Shown here piece by piece: positions 12,792 through 47,043 of a stretch of DNA of 64,000 nucleotides. The stretch comes from Cucumis sativus (lineage: Eukaryota > Streptophyta > Magnoliopsida > Cucurbitales > Cucurbitaceae): positions 30,150,272 to 30,214,271 of the forward strand of contig NC_026659.2 in the NCBI RefSeq assembly GCF_000004075.3. The letters run 5' to 3'. The position numbers were made by a program, and so were the translations under genes. The notes beneath the pieces were generated by a model that was not told the origin of the DNA, searched no databases, and saw nothing but the letters and a program-made list of their open reading frames with translations. Position 1 is the first letter of the stretch. Each line of letters opens with the position of its first letter.

Positions 12792-13070
12792 TCAGGGTGA
12801 TGAAGAGCAATCACACACTACCTCAGTTCCAACTTGCCTTCTATGGAAATTCCGGTGGCAACCACAAGCGGCGCAAGTCAGTCCAGCAGTCGTCCCTTCG
12901 TCACCACTCGCCATGAATTCTCGACACCCATCAACGGCGTACCCTCCGACACCGGCAGCGTGGTTCTTTTGACACTCCCCATATCTTACACTTCTAACTG
13001 TGAAAGAAGAAGCCACAGAATCCCTTGAGGATTCTTCTGATCTTCTAAGCACAACTTGACGCTTCCTCAT
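12792..13070 (-). CDS. MIF2: Mini zinc finger protein (MIF2 / INHIBITOR OF MERISTEM ACTIVITY type)
   Basis: A single exon encodes 92 residues. The start is the ATG of [10 protein letters not shown], exactly the family N-terminus; the frame stays open a few codons further upstream but without another ATG. The protein is essentially one ZF-HD-type zinc finger at about residues 28-78: [32 protein letters not shown]. It ends with the family tail TEVVCDC. There is no homeodomain. Known MIFs are small interfering proteins that bind ZF-HD factors and block their dimerisation, DNA binding or nuclear entry, and act in meristem termination and hormone response. A telo-box-like AAACCCTAACCC lies about 180 bases upstream at 13244-13255. 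The assignment to MIF2 rather than MIF1 or MIF3 is from remembered similarity. Confidence 0.93.
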
Positions 13071-13243
13071 TTGAACCAAAGGAAAAATTGTAAAAAAAAA
13101 AAAATCCTTTTTAGGGTAATTAGCTAGGTCTTGTTCTACAAAAAAAAAAAAAAAAAAAAAGCTTCAAATTTTGGTAATGGAATAATAAATTCAGTGTAGG
13201 AGTCAGGGACAGATTTTACAAATTGAAATGGGGTTCTTGGCTG

Positions 13244-25320: not shown

Positions 25321-26244
25321 TCAAGAAGAAGAAGATGACCCATTTGAGCCAATATGCATATGTAAGCCTCCATCTGGTTCATCTTCATGATTGTTGACGG
25401 TGGCGATGGCGGCGGCGACGGTGGCAATGGCGGTGGCGGTTGCGTCGCCATTGGAATCAGGCTTTTTTCCCATGGTGTTCTTGTTGTTATGCATCCAAAC
25501 TTTAAGAACCCCTCTTTCAACTCCAACTTGATTACAAAAATCTCGAACCAAATCTTCATCTCGTTTCTGCATTTTCCATCCCACCCGTTCGGCGAAATCC
25601 AGCATTTTCTCCTTCTGTTCGTTACTAAATTTCGTCCGAAACCGTTTCCGGGTGTTCGGACTCACCGTCGGCACCGAATTATTCCCCTGAGTGTGATTTT
25701 CCGGAGGACGACCCGACAAGCCAGCGGAAAGCGCTAATAACATATGTGGCGCAGATGGGTAATAGGAAGACGAGATTGGGGGAGGAGATGCGGAATTGGG
25801 GCTTCGGTTACCGGCGAGTGGCGGTGGGGGTGGGTGGTGACGGTGGTGAGGTTGATACTCAATAACATGAGTTGGGGCTGTATTGATAGCTAAAGTTGAA
25901 ATTGGATCTTCAGGATCGCGGCGGTGGAAATTGCGGTGACAGCCACAAGCGGCGCATCTAAGGGAAGTGGGATCGGAGGGTGTAGCGGAAGGGGAAGGCA
26001 TAAATTCGCCACATCCATCCAAGGCGTGAGCTCCTAAAGTGGCGGCATGATTTTTGAGACATTCTTTGTAAGAAACAACAACCGTGGAGGAGGGTGGGCG
26101 ATGGTGGTGATGGTGATTGTGGTGGTGGCGCTTGAGAACGCCGTTGGTGAAAGACGGTGGGATCTTAGTCGGAGTATCGGAGTCAGGGTCGGGGGATTTA
26201 GTGTTATTACTACTAGTAGTGATGGGAGCTGGGGCTAAATCCAT
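25321..26244 (-). CDS. Zinc finger-homeodomain protein (ZHD9/ZHD10-like)
   Basis: The gene has one coding exon of 307 residues, as is usual for this family. The first ATG ([10 protein letters not shown]) is chosen; the frame stays open two codons upstream without another ATG. A His-rich stretch (about 40-48) precedes the ZF-HD dimerisation zinc finger at about 58-110 ([32 protein letters not shown]). A Pro/His linker follows ([22 protein letters not shown]), then the homeodomain at about 199-261 ([27 protein letters not shown]). The PHHRHHPP and PISSSY linker words are those of the ZHD9/ZHD10 branch. The protein acts in the nucleus as a homo- or heterodimer; family roles include development and stress response. 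The C-terminus is Ala/Thr-rich and ends in Ser. Upstream is a CT-rich leader with a predicted 5' UTR intron. A MIF gene, a likely binding partner, lies 12 kb away on the same strand. Confidence 0.95.
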
Positions 26245-26268
26245 GGGCACTATCTCTCAAAAACCACA

Positions 26269-26460: not shown

Positions 26461-27066
26461 AAGGGAGTAAGAGAAAACAGAGAAAAAGGGGAAGGAGATA
26501 ATAAAAATATTTTTATTTTAAGATTTATTATTATTTGTGGTGGTGCTTTGTTAACCCAATTCTTTTCAATTTAACCCTAGTTATAATCTGTGGTTAAGTT
26601 GGGTGGACCCACATTGAGGATAGTTGTTGCATGTGTAATAAATATACCTCAATTCAACCACTGAGTAGTAGCAACTAGCAAGTAATGTTTCCATTTTATT
26701 ACTTTTCTGCTTAATTTTGATTCAATCACTCAGAATTCTGACTTATTAATTTATTATTCTTTTTATTTTAAAAAAAATATATTATTAAAAGGTTATTTGC
26801 AAGGTTTAAATGTAATTTGTAGAACAAAATTGAATCTAAATGGTTGGATATGAATATGAGGATGAGATTAGGATAATACATTTGAAGCTCATTTCTTCAA
26901 TATATATTTCATTCTGGGAATAATGAATATTTGGACAATTATGAATGGGTCAGGAGTGAGTTGACCCGAGAATTATATAATAAATAAAGGAAAAAGAATT
27001 GAAATTTTAACTATAGGGTGATGGAGGGAGGACCAGAGACAATACACTGCAAACCCATGTTAATTT

Positions 27067-27070
<4 letters not shown>

Positions 27071-27101
<31 letters not shown>
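27071..27101. repeat. (TC)n microsatellite
   Basis: Fifteen uninterrupted TC units. Confidence 0.92.
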
Positions 27102-27107
<6 letters not shown>

Positions 27108-27176
27108 ATTTATTTTAAATTTTGGCAACTTGCTTCTAGGACTGGACCGCTTTTAAAGTAACTTTCTTTTCTTCTC

Positions 27177-27208
<32 letters not shown>

Positions 27209-30200
27209 GAGAAAAGAAAGAAAGAAGTTAATTTTATTGATATTAGGTTTAGGTGTTTGTGTGTTTTAGTTTTGGATTTACATAAAGAAGAGCAGGTGTA
27301 ATTGACGAAAATGGGAGTTTAGGGGAAATGGTGATGAGGGGTAGATTTGTCTTTTGAAAGGGGGAGCCGGGAGGGGGGAAGTTGGGGGATATATATTACG
27401 GCTGGAAGTGGGAAGGGGTATTTATGTCGGCTTCAAAGGAATTTTAGGACGTTGAAACTTGGAATAATCCAATAACCCTTATTTTAATATGTCCATTCCC
27501 AAACCACACCGCTTTTCACTTTATATTCTATATTCACTCTTCATCTCCAAAACCCCCCCCTCCTCATCTCTCTCTAACCTTTTCTTTCTCACCTACCTTT
27601 TCCCTTATTACTTACTGATCTTATCATTCTCACATTTTTCTTAGAACTCTGCTAATACTAAAAATACATTCTTCTTCCTATCAATCATAATCCTTTTATT
27701 TTATGTTTCTATTTCCTCTAAATAAACTTCCTATACGCAATTAAAAATTACTATAAAATACACGTTTGTATATTCCTATAATTTCATTTATGTTTAGGAA
27801 AAGATAAGCAAAATAATTAATAGAAAAAGAGAGAGGTTTACATGTAGTTGGAGATATTAGGAGAAATAAAATAGAAGGAATTTGTGAAGGGGGATGCAAT
27901 GATGGACGAAAGTTAGGGTTTTTCTTATTTATCGAGAAACAGCAATTTGCATCGAAACTCCCAAACAAGCTTTTCCGTGCTTTCATTCTCAAACTCAATT
28001 ATTTCTTTTTCTCCCAATAATTACACTGTCCTCTAAACCCATAACCAACTACTCCATTTATTTACCTTTTATATTTTACACATATCTCTTTTCTAAATTT
28101 CCTAAAATGATTCTTCTCAATTAGTTAGTGACATTTTAAATTTATTTTTAATACTAATTGAAAACTTCAATTAAGTATTCTTTTAATTTTTTAAGTTAAT
28201 TATAAATTATTAGTAAAAATATAGACTTAGTATATATTCAAATTTAAACCAAATTCAAACTTTTAAAGTAAAATTATAACAAATTTATGAACTTTAACTT
28301 AATATTGAAAGTGTAACCTTTCAAAATGTAGGAGTCAAAGTAAAAAAAAACAAAATTCAACGTTTTTTTTTTTTTTTTTTTGTGTGTTTAACAATTTATT
28401 AGATGGTAAACATTAATTCATAATAGGCCAAAACACCACTGAATTCAAAATCTAATTCCATCATTTATTTATATAATTTATGAATTCCCATTTGATGAAA
28501 ATTGAATTACTAATTATTTTTTCTAATAAAACATATTTATAGTAGAAATGATCAAAATTAGATGGGCATTAATTTGATCACAATGTCTATTTCTATAAGA
28601 TATGACAAAGATTTTATGTGTTGGAAAGGTCCTTTCAAAACTTTGGATGCTGCACAAAGCTATATGAGAGTTTTGATTTCATCAATAATATTATATATAT
28701 ATATATATATAAAAGCAGTAGTGGTGAAATTAATATGAAAAAAAAAAAAAAGAGGGAAGGCTAATAAATGAAATTAGATGATTGTATGTGATATACACAC
28801 TTAAGGACAGTGTAGGTGTAGGGCATATAGATCTAGCATCAATTTTCCAAGATTTTTTCTTCTTCAATATTAAAAACAATAAAAAAAAAAAATTGTGGGA
28901 ATATTGTGTTGAGGTACCAAAATGCAAATATAAAAAATTAGGGGAAGTAGGGCCAAAGTATGGAGGGAGGGGGGGAGGGGCATAAAAAGAAAGAAAGAAA
29001 TGAGGGAAGAAGGAAAATTGATTGAGAAAAAAAGAAGAAAGAAAGGAAGAAAGAAAGAAAGAAAGTCTGGGGTTCCCCATAATTGTAGGGGCATGGGACC
29101 TCCTTCCTTACTTACTTACATTGTGGTCCTATTCATCCCTATCATTTTATTAAATTTCATTTATTCCATTCCCTCCCCCTTTTTTTTTTTTATATATATT
29201 TCTTTCTCTTCATTTTCTCATTTTCCCCTCTTTTTTTTCTTTCTTTAATATACAAATTCATTTTTGTTTTAAGTGGATTTTAGTTTCTATCACTAATATT
29301 TTTTACTATTTTGATTTTTTATTATCCTATTTTGATTTTTTTATTATCTTTGTTAGGAGTGAAATAATTAAATTTGACAAAATAAGTAAATAATTCTTGT
29401 TTTAAAAAATAATAAGTATAAGATAGAATGGATTTAGGTTCAAATAAATTTATAATCTCTATTATACTTTAAAAAATGTTTGAAACTTTGTTGTCTGAAC
29501 TTGATTGTCTAAACGGATCACTTTGATGAAAGTCACTTACATAGAAGCCTGAATTAGTCGTTTGGGCTATGATTGATGTGATTATAATCTCCAAAACAAA
29601 AGCTTATTAGATAAAAGTCTGAGTTGCTCTCTTTAAAATGTTTTGTGACTCTATAAAAAGTGTTAGTTCTTGATATTGCTACTAGGATAATAAACAACCT
29701 AATGTTCGATCATAATTGTATCGAAATTGATCAAAGTACCAACCCTCATTGATGTTTTTACTTGAAAACAAAAATGAAAGAGAAGAAGTTTGGTAAGAAA
29801 TATGTTTTTATAGTGAATTTAAATGAAATGATCGAGAAGGAGGACTAGTGATGGATTTTATAACACCTCATTAGTCCTATCAATTCGTAATGGTTCAAAC
29901 GGTCAGGTCAAAACGTAATGATCTCAACACGTTCAATTGCCTCAACAAATCAAATTTTTAAATTTTATGTTAATATTTTATTCCACACCACACTAGACTA
30001 CAACTCGTTGGTCCAAACGAACCGAAAGACAACACACATAGGTACCTCTAATGGGTTGGAATATAGTTATAGTTATCCAAACTAATTGAGATTTAGCATT
30101 AAAATTGACTTTTAAACCGACCATGAAATTAAAAATGGGAGGAAAACTTAGGATTGTGATTATATTATAGATGAACCAAAGGTTTGATATATAGTTTTAA

Positions 30201-31276
30201 TGGTTGGGTTCATTTACTAGGGGGTGTTAAATTTGTACAGATTCGAGTCCACATTTTACAGATTGTCATAAATGCTATTGTATGTTCTCTTATTGATCTT
30301 CATTATTATTGATTTTAATTTTTTCGACCAAGTCATTATATGTCATAAAATGCTATTATTAACTAATAGGATAATGATGTACTAATATCAAAATACTTAT
30401 AATTATTTATTGAATATAAAATTATTTATACTTTAATTGCTTGAAATTGACATATCACTTTACCATAGATTTTTTTTTTCTTTATAAGTTATCGTTTCAA
30501 TAAAATTAAATGCGCAAAAAACTTAGTTACTTAGCTGAAATTGCTAGTAGTCATCATATATAGAAAATTGACGCTATTAAATGATGTTGTACATTATACT
30601 AACAATTGCCACTGTCACAAAACTTAATTACCACATGCTTGATTGAATTTATATATTATTGTCAATTTTCTAATGTTTAGTGAAACATTAATTAACTCTT
30701 TCCATTTCAAAAATCCAATTTAATAAAATGGGTGAGTTGTCACCTTAAAATTAGTATAAAATTATGAATCGGTGATATTTATTGTTATCGTTATTGTTAA
30801 GGTCGAATAGTAACAACAACAGCAACGATGTTAATCTAATTGTACTTACAATTCAAGTCTATTGTGATTCATCTATTACAGAATTTCATTTCGATTATAC
30901 TAATTTTCATTACGGTTTAGTAAATATGGTCTTATATAAGAAAAAAAAGACAGAATATGTTGATGGTAAAGAAAATGTTGCCAAAAAGAGAGATTCCATA
31001 TCATACAAAAACAATAGTATTATATTCATTTGTTTTTGTCGAATCAACTAGCTCGACTAATTATATTTAATACCACATCTTTTTTTTTGTTAGTAAATTA
31101 ACGATTCAAAAATTATTTAGAACTATTTTTCAAACTTTATGAACAAAATAGATGTCAACGTCGAGTTTGGCGACAAAAGTGAAAAGAAAAAAGCGATAGG
31201 GATATTTATGGGAAAAACGGGGGTTGGATGATTGGGGATCCGGATCGTACGGCTTCCGAGGTTTCGAGTTTGCGGG

Positions 31277-31347
31277 TGGGCCCTTCTCTTGGTCATTTAG
31301 TTCACGATGGGCCTCAATTGAAGGCCCATTTCCTCTTCCATGGCCCA
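31277..31347. promoter_or_regulatory. Four site II-like (TGGGCC/GGCCCA) motifs within 71 bp
   Basis: TGGGCCC at 31277, TGGGCCT at 31308, AGGCCCA at 31322 and TGGCCCA at 31341 lie in a local G+C-rich island in otherwise AT-rich DNA. Such clusters are typical of promoters of housekeeping, ribosomal and mitochondrial genes. No convincing coding region starts on either side; the overlapping short open frames have no domain. Confidence 0.4.
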
Positions 31348-32820
31348 ATAACTACGAGATCACTGGATCTCTAGTGCTAGCCCAACGAAATAAATGGTTA
31401 CTAATGATCAAGTCCAACAACCAAATAAAAAGAAAAGAAATATAAAAGAGAAAACTGTGAGAATGTCTCCAAATAATAAATAACAATTTTTTTTTTTTAC
31501 TTTTATCCTTCCTATTCATGATGAGGAGTTTGAGGGAGTGATTTTTTGTTGGCTGATTCTTTACTTCTTTCTCCTAATTAAAAAAACTGAAATCATAAAG
31601 GGAATCAACATGGCACATTACACAAAACATGTAATCACTTCTTGTTCACTTGAAGCAAAGAAAGGTTACTTTATTGTTGAGGCAATTAGAAGGATAAAGT
31701 AGGTAGCCTTAAAGCTCACTTGTGTAGGGTAAGGAAAAAATTAATTAATCTCATAGACTTTTTTTTCATTCCATAGTTTTCCACCCATTACATATTTACA
31801 ATCTATTGAAGTGCATGATGATGATTTCTTCTTCTTCTTTTTTTTTGTCTTGATTTTGGCATGAATAGTGATATATTATGATTTCTCAAATAAAATTTAA
31901 CTCAAATTGATGTAAAACATGAGAAATTCAATATTGATACGTAAGATATCTAATTTATGTATACTCATATAAAATAAGATGTTCAAATATTTTCTATGCT
32001 ACTCCATAAGTAGTTTGGAAAATAGTGATGAATGAGAAGACAAGAACATCATGGCTAATCACAACAAAGTAATTAGGAAATCAAATAATAAATTAGAGAA
32101 ACTAAAATGCATTAACTTTTGTTTGGGATTAATTAAATCTCACTATTAATTACTTAATCAATTAAATGTCGTATTGGATGAATATATAGGTGAGAACTAT
32201 TTTCTCTAACAATATATAGTCTTTGAATAAAATAAAAATAAATAAATTTATAAAGACTTAGAATCAAAATAAAAACAATATGATATTTTTGTAGAGATCC
32301 CATGCCAATGGTATAATTTTTTTATTAATGTGTTATCCCTTGTTATTTAAGAATGAATTTTAGTTTTAACGCGTTTAAAAAGTTAAAGAATGATTAAATA
32401 TTTAAAGATAATACAATTGACCATAATAAAGTAAGAAAACTATTGTAAATGGTAAAATTACTTAAACGCTAATAAAATATAACAAAATTTTAGATTTTAT
32501 TATTGATCTATCAATATAACTACATTGATAAAATCTGAAAAATTTGCTATATTTTTCTATATTTGAAAATGTTCGAATAAAATAACTTACTACTATATAT
32601 TACTTCATTGTCCAACCGTTCGAAGGAAGAATTTGTAAGTTTCTCGTAAATGAAGGAAAATATTCTTTCTAATAGTAAATAGGATATAGTATATACAGAC
32701 AAAATAGAGTATTTTCTAGTAAATATTTCAATAATTATTATATCTTCATCTCGTTACTATTGAATTGTATCGTTATATAGAAAGAGGGAATCAAATCTCC
32801 AACAATAATATTACGAACTA

Positions 32821-32828
32821 TATAAATA
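32821..32828 (+). promoter_or_regulatory. TATA box of RNase T2-like A
   Basis: A perfect TATAAATA lies 72 bases before the start codon. Confidence 0.6.
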
Positions 32829-32899
32829 GAATACTAACACTTTTTTTTTTTCAATTTACATATAACTTAGAAAACACAACTTTTATTTTACAAGAAAAT

Positions 32900-33891
32900 A
32901 TGTTGATGGCAAAGAAGAAAAGTTTATTTATTCTCCTATGCATTTTGATGTTAAATCTTTTAATTGGGGATGCCTTGAATGGGCTAGAAGAGAACATAGC
33001 TTTCACGGAATCCAAAAATGATCATCCTAGTTTCTATGGTTTGGAGAGGATGAAAGAAGTTCCATTTGATTATTATCAACTTGTATTGCAATGGCAACCA
33101 GCAACTTGCAGCAATGCCATTTGTCTAAGACCCTGGTCGTCGAGGTTTAGCATCAACGGTCTATGGGCTGCCAGCTATTCTCGCCCTATTGGTCGTTGCA
33201 CTGGCAACGGATTTCTTCAACAAAACGTATGTTTTTTTTGTTCTCGTTAATATTGTGTTTTTTAAATATATTTTCATTATAGTATGATATTCTATTATCG
33301 TTTACATCTAATTCATTTTACTATAAAACTAATAAAAAAAAATGTCTGAACTTAATATAAAAATTTTGAATATCTATGCGTATATCCATTTTTTTATTAG
33401 CAGTCTAATCTATCAATACCTAAATCTAAATTTTATTACATCTACAAATTATTTTTTACTAGATCACGAGCATTAGAAAAGAGTTGGATGAGGATTGGCC
33501 GAGTTTGGTAATAAGTGCAAACCCAGCAGTATGGAGTGAAGCATGGAATTTACAAGGCACATGCTTTGAATCTCCAACATTCCAAATCAATGACTATTTC
33601 CGATTAGCACTATACCTTTTTTGGAGAAGCGATGTGCAAAAAGCACTTCAAGAATCTGGGATTGAACCAATAAATGGAAAGCAATATGAAAAGTCGGATA
33701 TTGAAGCAGCCATAACCAAAAGCTTTGGGAAGCCAGCATTGCGTTGCAACTTGAACTTAAAGTACTTACTTCAGTCTCAATTGTCACAAGTGTTTCTTTG
33801 CTTTGATAAATGTCTTGCTCACATCGATTGTCCTTCTAAATATTCTCCTGCCCTTGGATGTCCTACAAAGATCCTATGGAACAAAACATAG
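32900..33891 (+). CDS. RNase T2-like protein A, catalytic residues lost
   Basis: Exons 32900-33226 and 33463-33891 join in phase 0 to encode 251 residues. The start ATG (MLMAKKKSLF) is followed by a hydrophobic signal peptide (about 8-24), so the product should be secreted. The RNase T2 fold is clear: FDYYQLVLQWQPATC (56-70), the first conserved box FSINGLW (83-89), ELDEDWPSL, the second box WSEAWNLQGTC (133-143), and CFDKCLAHIDCP near the C-terminus with family cysteines. Active enzymes have FTIHGLW and a W-E-H-E-W-x-K-H-G box. Here His is Asn86, and the second-box His, Glu, Lys and His are Glu135, Ala136, Leu139 and Gln140. The protein therefore should not cut RNA. The reading frame, splice sites and TATA box are intact, which argues against a simple pseudogene. 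It may be an RNA-binding, inhibitory or structural secreted protein. It converges with FTSH6. Confidence 0.87.
33227..33462 (+). other. Intron of RNase T2-like A
   Basis: It starts GTATGT and ends TTTACTAG, phase 0, just before ITSIRKEL. The same position is occupied by intron 3 of RNase T2-like B. Confidence 0.85.
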
Positions 33892-34701
33892 TTTTAACTT
33901 TTAGTTTTTCCTGGATATGCAAAGGGATAAATTAAATAAATAAACAAAACTTCATTATTCCCTTTGCCTCTTTTAATTTGCTTTGTGTCGGATTATATGA
34001 CTATATGTGTACGTGTATCATCTCATCATCAATAAAGTTGCTACTCATATCATCTACTTATGTAGAAATGTATCTATATATATATGTAATCATCAATAAA
34101 GTTGCTACTCATATCATCTACTTATGTAGAAATGTATCTATATATATATGTACGTATGTATTTATCTATGTATACTACATTTCTAAATTGATGATTTTTC
34201 TTTAACATCTCCATTGATCGTCCTGATCTGAGCATCTTTGGCTTTGAATTTGTGATATAAACAAGGATGCTATATTGAACACACCTTCTGTTCTTTTTGG
34301 TTCATTTGTTTATTAAAAAAAAGAGCAATAGTTTATTTGGTTTAGCTTTCCATTATTGTTGATGTTTCATTTTTCTCTCTCATTTCCCCTTCCAAAATCC
34401 AAACCATTTATGTCGTTCTATCTGCCATCTTCTTATCATTCCTCTACTATATATATTCTTAAATAAATCTAAAATGTTAATTGACTCAAAAGTATGATAT
34501 CAAAAGTCTGTGAGACTGATCCAAAAACTTAAACGAGTAGATTGTGGCAGCATGAAGAAAGAAGAACGATGATTGAAAAGCTGCAACGTTTCATTTATAC
34601 AACCATCTTAGTCCTATGATCTCTACTTCTGCCTTTTATTCTATGTAATAAATACACAGCATATTTATAATTTGATGTCCTAACTTGTACACAAAGATTA
34701 T
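33892..34701. other. Convergent 3' region between RNase T2-like A and FTSH6
   Basis: It holds the 3' UTRs of both genes and a 64-base tandem duplication (34027-34154). No other gene is seen. Confidence 0.6.
34027..34154. repeat. 64-bp tandem duplication
   Basis: Two adjacent, nearly identical 64-base units start at 34027 and 34091. Each begins CATCAATAAAGTTGCTACTC and ends in a TATATATATATGTA stretch. They lie in the probable 3' UTR or flank of RNase T2-like A. Confidence 0.92.
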
Positions 34702-37861
<3,160 letters not shown>

Positions 37862-39052
37862 AGTTTCTGCTGTGTATTTTGACAAGCGTTTTGAGTGATG
37901 ATTTGAAAGAAATGTGAAAAGAAAAAGATACGTTGAAGCTTTAAATGGAGAAGTAAAGAAGAGGAAATAGGAGTTTCCAGAAATTGGAATTTGGGGATGT
38001 TTGAAGTTTCCATCTGATTCATGAAGGCTCTGGAATTGGCTCCAAAGCTGAATCCAAGAAAGTTTTGATGAGAAAGAACGTTGAATAAGGTGAAAATTTG
38101 TATGCTCCAAGCGCCACACACTTGTGCAAAAGGTAACGGCGACTTAAGAATTTCCCACCAAATCATGCATATAACTTTTTTTTTCTTGTTTGTATCTCAT
38201 TATAGTCATTGCCATAAAATCTTCTTGTACTATTTGAGGAAACCCTTCGAACTGACACTCTTGACCTTCTGTTCCTTCAATGTAGATCATCATGTTAGGA
38301 ATAGAATTCAATCTCTACAGACAATTGTTTTATGACTTTCCTCATCTAAATTCAAACATTTGCTGATAATGATGACACTAGTGTTCTATTGAGGAAGCAT
38401 TGTATTACACATTCTTTTTCTCTAACATACATATACACATATATACCTTGGATAAAAAAAATTAAAATAATAAATAATTGACATGGACTTGATTTTCTAA
38501 AAAGAAAAAGAAAAATAAAGCAAAGGAAAACTCTAGAAAAATGTATTATGTGCAATAAGCTTATTTTTTAAAAACAGAAAACTTATAACAAATAACCAAT
38601 GGCATCAAAATCAACATTTGTATTGGTCTCTTTCACATATTTTATTCATATTATTTTAATTAATTAATTATATATGATGGATTAAAATTTAAAAAAATTA
38701 TTTTAAACGACAATTCTTTTTAAAATATTATAGATATAATATCATTTTACTATATTTTTGAAAATAAATTTGTTTATTTTTTTATATATTTTTTAAAAAA
38801 ACTTTAATTTTATAAATTAAAAGTCAAGATGTGTCACTAAATTACTAACGCAATGTGCCACTAATTTTTATAATTTAGAAAGAAAAAAAATCAACTTAAA
38901 TTTGATTATAATTTAATTATGTTGAATTGAATAAAAGAAGGAAGAAGAAAGGGAGGAAAAATGAAATCCCCGGTTTTGTGTAGAGCGGCGGCCAAGGTTT
39001 AGCATTTCATTGCCCTAAATCGCTCCCTTCTTCCCTTTCTTTCCATTTACCC
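37862..39052. promoter_or_regulatory. Divergent intergenic region between FTSH6 and NFD6-like
   Basis: About 1.2 kb separates the two opposite start codons. The frame upstream of the FTSH6 start stays open for 86 codons without a better start and looks like leader sequence. The NFD6 side carries a G+C-rich leader from about 38975. No other gene fits, so both promoters must lie here. Confidence 0.5.
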
Positions 39053-39630
39053 ATGGCTTCCTTTGCCGCCAGGTCCATTTTTCGATCCTCCTCCGCCAAG
39101 GCTGCCACTCTTCTCAGCGCCGGAGCCAGAGCTGCTCCGGCTTCTTCACCATTTCGCATTGCTTCCAAACGACCTTTCTCTCACTGCTCTTTTAGGTAAT
39201 TCCCTCCCAACCCTTCGACTTCGACGATATTTTTTCAATGTAATTTGATTCTGGAAACTCAGCGTGTGAGTTCAGTTAAGATGCGTGGAAAAGTATGCTG
39301 AGTGTTCTCATAGGTATTGTTTTTCACTTTCTCTTTGAAGGCTTCCGATTGAACTGAGCTTCTGCGTCGAGTCCATGCTTCCCTTCCATTCTGCAACTTC
39401 TTCGGCATTAATGACTTCGATGCTTTCTGTTTCTCCCCATAGCTTTGGTTGGCTTTCAGAAGGTATTTTCAGTCCTTATTCTTATAGAGTGAATTTTACT
39501 TTTTCCTATCTTCTTTTTATCCTGCCACTACGAATTCTGATTTCTTTTGTTCAACATTGGATAGATGCATTCTTGGTCCTACAATCGAATTAGTAGTTTC
39601 TACAGTGAATTTTACCTTCTTTTTTTTTTT

Positions 39631-39662
<32 letters not shown>

Positions 39663-40182
39663 TATTCAATGTTCTTGTTCTGCTGACACTATGAAGTTTC
39701 TGATTTCTTTCGTTCAAGAATTTGGATAGCTCCATTCTTAATCTTACTACCGTGAGTTTTAACTTCTTCAATGTTCTTGTTAGCTGGCACTATGAAACTT
39801 TCTAATTTCTTTTGTTCATGATTGAATTTGAACTTTTTCAATGTTCTTGTTACTTACCGCGCTTCTATAATATAAATGCTCTTTTTGCTTGATTGAACAA
39901 GCATCTTATCCGTCCTTTTTTTTTTTTCGTTTTTTTCGTATCAATGGATTGCAATTTTGAGTTCATCTTCCTAAGATAAATATTAAATGCTGCATTCTGT
40001 ACTAGGGTCTAACTTTTAAGCTAAAGAAGTAACGAAACCCTCCCCTCCAACTCTAACTTGTAATTTAGTTCTTTATAAGTGATGCTTGTATGTTCAAATC
40101 ACGACTATTTCATCCACATAATTGATATAAACGCGAGGATACTAATTGTGATGTTTAATCAGTGTTCAATGATGATGTGTGA
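39053..40182 (+). CDS. NFD6: NUCLEAR FUSION DEFECTIVE 6 (NFD6)-like mitochondrial protein
   Basis: Three coding exons, 39053-39195, 39341-39462 and 40163-40182, give 94 residues. Exon 1 encodes [16 protein letters not shown] with an Arg/Ser/Ala-rich, acid-free stretch typical of a mitochondrial presequence. Exon 2 encodes the conserved block [31 protein letters not shown] followed by GWLSE. The last coding exon is only 20 bases and adds VFNDDV before the stop, matching the acidic ending of family members. NFD6 is a small mitochondrial protein whose loss blocks polar-nuclei fusion in the Arabidopsis female gametophyte; its biochemical role is unknown. The family is known for alternative 3' ends, and if intron 2 is retained the protein would end differently after GWLSEG. 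Exon 3 is the least certain part. Confidence 0.85.
39631..39663. repeat. (TCTT)n microsatellite in NFD6 intron 2
   Basis: About eight TCTT units directly follow a poly-T run. Confidence 0.9.
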
Positions 40183-44790: not shown

Positions 44791-47043
44791 ATGAAGTTTC
44801 ATCACCAAACTGCCATGAAAATCCATCCCAACTGTTCTACTCCAATGCTCATTCTCTTTCTCCTTTTCCAGCTTCTTGGTATAACCATATCATGTCAAAA
44901 CATTGCATCATATAACTCTTCTCAGGTAATTTAATCATAAAATTTTGTTTATTTCTATTCAAAGTTGACCAAATTAGCCCACCCCCCTTTTGTTTACAGC
45001 TGTTTTCAGAAGGCAACGGAGAATATGAGTTTTTTTACCTTGTTCAACAGGTAATCAAAATTGTGTTCTTCCCATTTGGGTTTATCTTATGATCACTTTT
45101 CTTATTTGTGGCTGTATTGTAAGCATTAGTGGCAGGTTTCTTTATGCAATTTGAGGCCTTGTCAAAAACCAGCAATACCCACTTTCAGTATTAATGGTTT
45201 CCGGCCTTCTTCTTATGGGATTCCCAATTGCAAAATTGGAACAAGTTTTGATTCTTCAAAGGTATTTTTTGCTGCACAGAGAGATTAATAAAGAGGGGTT
45301 GATATGATTCAAATTCATTATGATGTTCTTTTTAATAGATGTTGGACCTGAAAACTGAGTTAGATAGAGAATGGCCATCACTTGAGGTGGAAGAGAATGA
45401 AGAAATATGGAGGAAAGAGTGGGAAAACCATGGAATCTGTTCACAGCCATTGCTAACTCAACACGCATTCTTTGAAACTGCACTCAAGCTTAAGCAAACT
45501 TTTGATATCTTCACTATCTTAGCAAACAGAGGTTTGTACTGTTTCAAGATTTGAACAAAACTTTGATCTTCCATTTGAAAAATAGTCCACTTGTCCTTGG
45601 TAAGGGAAATGAGTTTATGTTTACCCATAATACTTGTTAATTCTCTTCAAGTTTTGAAAATTGTTGTAAGTTGTCCTTATACTAGTTTATTGTTAATATT
45701 GTGGAGAAAAATGTGGTGAGTTAAGGTACCAACTATTTTGAGATAATGGAGAAAGATAGGAAGATCGAGAAAGAACATATAAAGGATTCAATAACCTTTG
45801 GAAGAAATACAAGCATGGTCATCTTGATGTGATAACAGATAGTAGGGCTAACTTTTCAAACATGTGCTCAATTAGATGACAAAGACAAGTGCAAAAGAAC
45901 TATAAAGAAAGTATGCTATTTATTATTTCACCAGAGTTGTGTTGATGCCAAAATTCGGATAGGAAAAAGAGTTGTGGCCTTTCACTTGGTAACAACAATA
46001 AATTTGTTTTGAGAGGAAAAGAATATGACTAGCAAAACAAAAAGAAACTTGCACATCGTTGTAGTGCTACACAAACTCTTATGCTTACAGTTAAGAGTAA
46101 AGTAGTGTGAAAACTTTAGAATTTGAGAATCAAAATGAGCTTACTCCTCCTTTAGTTACAAAGATGCGTTTATAGAAGTAATCATCCTAGATTATCCAGC
46201 TTAAACACACCCGTATGAGATCGAGCATCTCCCTTGGATCCATTTTAGGCATAGAGTCATGCTTTGGGTTGGGGCATAAAGCATGGCACGCCTCACTAAA
46301 TACTTTGCTACAATGAGATCGAGCATGTTGAGCTTTGTCCAAAGCTCAAGCCAACTCTCTCCCCTAGGTCTATTTCAGTTCTAGGGTGTTATATACAGTT
46401 TAAATCTTGTTACTTTCTTAACTTCTTTTCACTTTTGTTTTTGTTTATGTCGATTATGTCCTTTGATTTAAAATCACACTATGTATGAGCAAGTATATCA
46501 TTCTTTTAACTTATATGTCATATCTTCTTCAGATCATTAATGATAGATTTACACGTTCAAAATCATTTTCAAAAGTTTAAACAATTATCTACAGAGACAA
46601 CAAAATGTATTTCGAAACAAACGAAAGTTACAAACAATATATTAAATGCCAAAGAATCTCACCTAACATAATAGCATCCTATGTTATTAGGTCAATGAAT
46701 AAGTTCTTTTCAACTACTTAGACTTTGCTTTCTAGAAATCATTACAAAACTTAGCTCTATTATATTATGTGTTTTTAATGTTAATGAAATGGTTTGGGAT
46801 GCAGGAATCTTTCCATTTGGAGAGGTGTATGACTTAGAAAACATAAGTGATGCCATTAGAGATGCAACAGGACATACTCCACAAGTGGAATGCAAATCAT
46901 ACAAACAAATTCCTTTGCTCTCCAACATCTTCCTTTGCTTCAAATACAATGATAATGCCATTCATATTGTGGACTGTCCCCTTATAAGAAGATGCAATTT
47001 CCAAGCTATCCTTTTCCCTTATGCTCAATTTGGTCCATCTTAG
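44791..47043 (+). CDS. RNase T2-like protein B, catalytic residues partly lost
   Basis: Five exons, 44791-44925, 45000-45050, 45136-45261, 45339-45531 and 46805-47043, join in frame to 247 residues. Either MKFHHQ (44791) or the in-frame ATG MKIHPN (44815) could be the start. A hydrophobic signal segment lies at about 19-34. RNase T2 landmarks: EFFYLVQQ..LCNLRPC, first box FSINGFRP (79-86) in place of FTIHGLWP, ELDREWPSL, second box WRKEWENHGIC (128-138), and FLCFKYNDNAIHIVDCP. The first-box His is Asn82 and the second-box first His is Lys130 and Lys is Asn134, but Glu131 and His135 are kept. The Trp-Pro before the first family cysteine is also missing. RNA cleavage is therefore unlikely. The start of exon 4 shares its intron position with gene A. 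Intron 4 is long (1,273 bases). It converges with the AAR3-like gene. Confidence 0.82.
45532..46804 (+). other. Long intron 4 of RNase T2-like B
   Basis: Phase 1; it begins GTTTGT and ends GATGCAG. It holds no coding region I can recognise. A less AT-rich part near 46190-46390 (GAGATCGAGCAT repeated) may be an old insertion. Confidence 0.65.

Follow-up and report, generated by a model that had tools for sequence, protein, structure and literature searches.

A cucumber ribonuclease T2 gene without any of the five catalytic residues is probably maintained for a non-catalytic function

A 64,000-nucleotide stretch of the Cucumis sativus genome (contig NC_026659.2, positions 30,150,272–30,214,271; hereafter the window) contains a gene, designated A, that encodes a protein of the ribonuclease T2 family in which every catalytic residue has been replaced while the reading frame is open. 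This raises the question of whether the gene is decaying or is kept for a function that does not require RNA cleavage and, in the latter case, which function this might be.

Gene A lies on the forward strand, with an ATG at 32900 and a stop codon ending at 33891, and encodes a product of 251 amino acids. Exon 1 (32900–33226), which was also found as an exon match in the genome search, encodes residues 1–109 and comprises a signal-peptide-like N-terminus, an extension and the first half of the T2 domain; exon 2 (33463–33891, including the stop codon) encodes residues 110–251. The 236-nucleotide phase-0 intron between them (33227–33462) has the donor GTATGT after 33226 and the acceptor TACTAG before 33463. 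Within the range tried, the frame stays open with seven donor/acceptor pairs, of which 33227/33462 was chosen because spliced alignment with RNase MC1 selects it and because it matches the intron position of the paralogues. The TATA box noted in the preliminary description corresponds to a TATA-like element, TATAAATA, at 32821–32828, which ends 72 nucleotides 5' of the ATG; as it was read from the sequence only, its promoter role is putative. The signal-peptide-like N-terminus suggests that the product is probably secreted. It is followed, before the T2 domain, by an acidic extension of about 30 residues (codons 25–54, 32972–33061; pI 4.7) that is absent from the seven T2 genes on C3 and from gene C7a (described below), and none of the 23 matches that the A protein gave in the genome, other than A itself, extends over residues 1–50. 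About 130 nucleotides 3' of the gene there is a 64-nucleotide tandem duplication with 97% identity (34020–34147). Elsewhere in the window, two reverse-strand frames with a ZF-HD dimerisation region lie 12 kb apart (12795–13163, 123 residues, and 25324–26256, 311 residues).

The protein matches the Ribonuclease_T2 family (PF00445) with an E-value of 3e-33 and 115.9 bits (cut-off 26) over profile positions 1–188, i.e. the full length, and this is its sole Pfam match at E ≤ 0.001. RNase MC1 is the best relative of known structure (E = 4.6e-20, identity about 33%). All seven MC1 cysteines in the stretch used (Cys15, Cys23, Cys48, Cys91, Cys151, Cys168 and Cys179) are kept in A, Cys242 aligns with a cysteine of the paralogues as the eighth conserved one, and Cys226 (codon 33811–33813) is a ninth. 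The gene model and the alignments with MC1 and the paralogues thus bear out the earlier view that the frame, splice sites and structural cysteines are intact, and the protein is expected to retain its disulfide-bonded fold.

The single phase-0 intron of A, after residue 109 and between the two active-site boxes, lies where the seven C3 genes and C7a also have their only intron; C5a, C5b and gene B, unlike A, have an extra upstream intron. A single intron without the first intron of class I is a mark of class III, and A is labelled class III-like here on this intron pattern. Class I T2 genes mostly have three introns, and class III patterns are reported to resemble those of class I (PMC5598434). 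The calculated pI of A depends on the cut, being 6.9 from residue 25, 6.2 from residue 21 and 8.4 (basic) for the domain alone, the lower values being due to the acidic extension. When the first 20 residues are left off, C7a and C3b both have a pI of 6.6 and the other C3 genes 8.3–9.0. In class III, six shifts to an acidic pI are reported to have gone along with loss (PMC5598434).

The catalytic-site residues reported for MC1 are His34, His83, Glu84, Lys87 and His88 (PMC9266746), and none of the five is kept in A. In box 1 (FSINGLWA, 33146–33169) His34 is replaced by Asn86, and in box 2 (VWSEAWNLQG, 33529–33558) His83, Glu84, Lys87 and His88 are replaced by Glu135, Ala136, Leu139 and Gln140, respectively, so that the alignment agrees with all five substitutions in the preliminary description. 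Pro38 (Ala90) and Phe80 (Val132) are also changed. The same description had considered that a transcript with other exons could restore the HGLW and HEWxKHG boxes. No HGLW or HEWxxHG box is present in any of the seven alternative-splice proteins, and in all six frames of 26900–39900 the only similar box is the FSING of gene A itself, although this search would miss a box interrupted by an intron.

Around the catalytic site, the B1 site of MC1 is reported to consist of Arg150, Gln164, Trp37 and Ser44 and the B2 site of Gln9, Asn71, Leu73 and Phe80 (PMC9266746). The equivalents of Trp37, Arg150, Gln164 and Gln9 are kept in A (Trp89, Arg203, Gln218 and Gln64), the positions of Ser44, Asn71, Leu73 and Phe80 are altered, and the histidine and lysine residues that contact the phosphate and ribose are lost. 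Among the three cucumber genes with a lost site, A is the only one to keep all of Trp37, Arg150 and Gln164; C7a keeps Trp37 alone. Asn71 and Leu73 also vary in the intact paralogues, and all six intact C3 proteins in the comparison have Glu in place of Gln164; these positions are therefore less telling than the catalytic ones, and the retained glutamine is no clear signal. As judged from these residues, catalysis should be lost in A, with part of the nucleotide pocket remaining.

The concentration of changes in the active site was assessed against 12 reference proteins that have His34, His83, Glu84 and His88 (eight of this genome, MC1, LE, 1iyb and NGR3). Within the MC1 stretch, 25 columns are invariant in all of them, the four catalytic ones by construction, since the set was selected on these residues; Lys87 is not among them, being absent from two of the cucumber paralogues included. 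Gene A has lost all four catalytic columns and two of the 21 others (Phe to Tyr59 and Pro to Ala90; Fisher p = 0.0012). The corresponding losses are 2/4 and 2/21 for gene B (p = 0.11) and 2/4 and 1/21 for C7a (p = 0.057).

A search of the genome (226.6 Mb, 88 contigs) with the PF00445 profile gave 27 exon-level matches, from which 12 T2 genes were modelled; the weaker loci L016, L017, L018 and L019 were left out of full modelling. Cucurbitaceae are reported to have 13–28 T2 genes, with one subclass drawn from Rosaceae and Cucurbitaceae (PMC9250077). His34, His83, Glu84 and His88 are kept in nine of the 12 modelled genes, namely C5a, C5b and the seven on C3, with C3c, C3d and C3e lacking Lys87. 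The status of C3e was taken from its protein identity with C3d, which is also why it was left out of the alignments. These two genes (C3d, L013 8632–9319; C3e, L014 2592–1905) lie on opposite strands about 80 kb apart, and the pair could reflect either recent duplication or the way the sequence was assembled. C3f is identical to cusativin at all 15 residues checked (Gln36, His60, Trp63, Ser70, Asn97, Val98, Val99, Thr100, Phe106, His109, Lys113, His114, Arg176, Lys178 and Glu189, in the numbering of PMC9266746). At L018 1934–2371 (C5:24747448) there is a decayed T2 copy that is interrupted by in-frame stops.

The site is wholly or partly lost in the remaining three modelled genes, A, B and C7a. 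Gene B (44791–47043, forward strand; exons 44791–44925, 45000–45050, 45130–45261, 45339–45531 and 46805–47040, followed by the stop codon) begins about 11 kb beyond the 3' end of A. It has five exons, class I affinity and a stretch before the T2 domain, and its site is partly lost (His34 to Asn, His83 to Lys, Lys87 to Asn and Trp37 to Arg, with Glu84 and His88 kept). Gene C7a (C7:15753243–15755002; L015 1700–3503), which has an intron of 1172 nucleotides, has His83 replaced by Ser, Glu84 by Lys and Lys87 by Met, with His34 and His88 kept.

In a maximum-likelihood tree, the set for which includes an incomplete class II protein encoded at L017 and leaves out C3e, A stands on its own long branch between a group of C3a–d with C7a and the rest (support 44.5/57). 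None of the six constrained placements of A is rejected by the AU test: A with C7a (p = 0.45), A with B (p = 0.56), A with B and C7a (p = 0.18), A with the MC1 clade (p = 0.16), A with C3a–d and C7a (p = 0.67) and A with class I (p = 0.13, or 0.126 unrounded); the placement with the MC1 clade is the only one outside the bp-RELL and c-ELW sets. In view of the four introns of B and its affinity to class I, a simple tandem-duplicate origin of A and B is not favoured, although their grouping is unrejected.

Whether A could have reached its present state by neutral decay was addressed by simulations that started from three intact paralogues and covered nine divergences for each (27 settings of 20,000 runs), under an assumed AT-biased mutation spectrum and without indels. 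Loss of all five catalytic residues together with an open frame occurred in no run in 25 of the 27 settings and in a single run in each of the other two. Multiplying the separate rates of these two outcomes gives at most 2.4e-5, or 2.3e-6 if all eight cysteines must also be kept. Simple neutral decay of A is unlikely.

Codon models point the same way. On a topology like that of the maximum-likelihood tree, omega on the A branch is 0.18, compared with 0.27 elsewhere; omega = 1 is rejected (p = 2.1e-4) and equality with the background is not (p = 0.42). The branch value is 0.19 with single-intron genes only (omega = 1 rejected, p = 1.9e-4) and 0.23 with A and B as sisters (p = 8.4e-4); B and C7a have values of 0.20 and 0.045. 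The branch leading to A has a saturated dS (branch length between 4.9 and 6.9 in the units of the model) and spans some time from before the loss, so that omega supports constraint on A but gives no date for it. The preliminary description had proposed dN/dS as the check on selection: the value stands clear of 1, at about 0.2, and is to be read as one from within-genome paralogues with saturated dS and with time before the loss mixed in.

Since the sequence indicates a dead site, and since both the simulation and omega make simple neutral decay unlikely, selection for another job is the best reading, as the preliminary description had suggested. Of the jobs that it listed, RNA binding without cleavage may be possible, with the phosphate and ribose contacts gone and the equivalents of Trp37, Arg150, Gln164 and Gln9 kept; self/non-self recognition fares badly. 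This last idea would make A a pistil factor resembling an S-RNase, and it draws on the class III-like intron pattern, on the basic pI of the domain without its extension and on the linkage of related genes to F-box genes. A genome search for PF00646, in which 150 of 212 candidates were scored, gave 145 matches. Measured start to start, each of the seven modelled C3 genes lies 2.1–3.4 kb from an F-box match and has 2–5 matches within 50 kb; these genes (L010–L014) are near 29.68, 30.2–30.36 and 33.74 Mb and form about three clusters, and they are not independent. FBA_1 was also found in both of the neighbouring F-box frames scanned on C3. Among the same 150 scored candidates, there is no F-box match in the window, none within 490 kb of A, the nearest being 503 kb away, and none within 439 kb of A, B, C5a, C5b, C7a, the decayed C5 copy, a C4 locus and a C7 fragment; nor was an F-box found among 20 chosen window frames (of 113) run against Pfam. 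As the intact class I genes C5a and C5b are unlinked too, linkage is a feature of the C3 clusters rather than of an intact site in itself. The distance of A from any F-box match found thus argues against a self/non-self role, as do the reported need for the catalytic histidines in S-RNase rejection (PMC12403065) and the pI of A, 6.9 from residue 25 compared with at least 8.10 for S-RNases (PMC5598434), and this role is extremely improbable.

The arrangement of T2 and F-box genes on C3 resembles an S-locus, and C3f, the match to cusativin, is among its RNases. Cucumber is self-compatible. Class III RNases beside several F-box genes have been reported in five eurosid species beyond the known S-loci (PMC5598434).

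Proteins of this kind have precedents. One survey lists 91 plant T2 sequences that lack an essential histidine or have been shown to be inactive, proposing that some of them may have changed function and noting that little is known of the jobs of most (PMC5598434); its main text does not contain 'Cucumis' or 'Cucurbit', and no cucurbit names were found in PMC8774079. RNase MC1 from bitter gourd and cusativin from cucumber share the T2 domain and cysteines with A, which differs from them in its five catalytic residues, in Phe80 and in the N-terminal extension. CalsepRRP from Calystegia sepium (1jy5) resembles A in lacking the first-box histidine, with Lys in its place and Tyr at the first histidine of the second box, but it is a class II protein that, in the stretch shown, retains EWAKHG and with it Glu, Lys and the final His, whereas A has class III-type introns and has lost all five residues. 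The class I clades without one or both histidines (37 grass and 14 Caryophyllales sequences), for which a functional shift is considered possible, have shifted to a basic pI, whereas A is class III-like; the major protein of Panax ginseng (GMP), a T2 protein without RNase activity that is treated with class III, is reported to keep its catalytic His, unlike A (PMC5598434). No paper on gene A was found in a literature search that covered mostly titles and the beginnings of abstracts and few subscription journals; one gene-name match on chromosome 5 belonged to a zeatin-pathway list and was discarded. A scan of viral contigs gave six pattern matches and no relatives of A. Gene A is judged to add to a known kind, the secreted RNase-related pseudoenzymes, and the idea of a non-catalytic T2 protein is not new.

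The reading favoured here, and held to be probable, is that A is a secreted T2 pseudoenzyme derived from an active RNase and kept by purifying selection for a non-catalytic, binding-type job. The ancestor would have been an active plant T2 RNase, of class III type by its intron pattern, in which RNA cleavage was lost and the disulfide-bonded fold retained; purifying selection would then have kept the gene for a role that depends on the folded protein and not on catalysis. The protein may serve as a scaffold that binds a ligand or partner outside the cell or in the vacuole, through its surface, the remaining nucleotide pocket (Trp89, Arg203, Gln218 and Gln64) and the acidic extension. The loss of His83, Lys87 and His88 and the changes at Phe80, Asn71, Leu73 and Ser44 speak against binding, and the choice of a binding role ahead of storage is a guess from the sequence. 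Storage, in which A would be kept only as an abundant folded protein derived from an RNase, is doubtful but has family precedents: the inactive class II CalsepRRP, itself a PDB relative of A (E = 1.4e-13) and proposed to be a storage protein, and the class III GMP, inactive although its His is kept (PMC5598434). No sequence feature of A points to storage, which would not require the loss of five residues.

A special case of the favoured binding reading, with which its probability overlaps, is that A is a decoy or regulator, guarding against sister RNases such as cusativin-like enzymes, or controlling them, through competition for a substrate or partner. There are nine other modelled genes with His34, His83, Glu84 and His88, one of them cusativin-like, and the retained equivalents of Trp37, Arg150, Gln164 and Gln9 would suit such a role; a T1-like RNase fold is also found in a fungal protein proposed to be an RNA-binding pseudoenzyme (PMC6464244). 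The absence of His83, Lys87, His88 and Phe80, with Glu in place of His83, makes this specific form unlikely. That A is instead a dying pseudogene, its frame open by luck or its death recent after some other function, is quite unlikely: the loss of all catalytic residues and the decayed T2 copy on C5 are in keeping with it, and a recent death is compatible with the simulation, but neutral runs combined five-residue loss with an open frame at most once in 20,000, omega is below 1, and the conserved cysteines and splice sites are intact. A further idea, very unlikely, is that A, B and C7a form one old non-catalytic lineage whose site was lost before they split and whose members now act as extracellular nucleotide or RNA sensors or as decoys against cusativin-type RNases. 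Of residues absent from 12 intact proteins, A shares eight with B and seven with C7a, and B and C7a share six, while by a stricter count A has 0–2 exclusive residues in common with any single intact protein. A similar pattern can arise from long branches. Grouping the three costs 10.2 log units (AU p = 0.175, not rejected), and the class I introns of B argue against a single lineage.

With T2 genes linked to F-box genes on C3 and A, B and C7a unlinked, this family may bear on the history of the linkage between RNase and F-box genes in self-incompatibility. The loss of all five catalytic residues in one gene of a sequenced crop, together with the well studied active relatives cusativin and MC1, makes A a clean test case, and it could reveal what the T2 fold does without catalysis.
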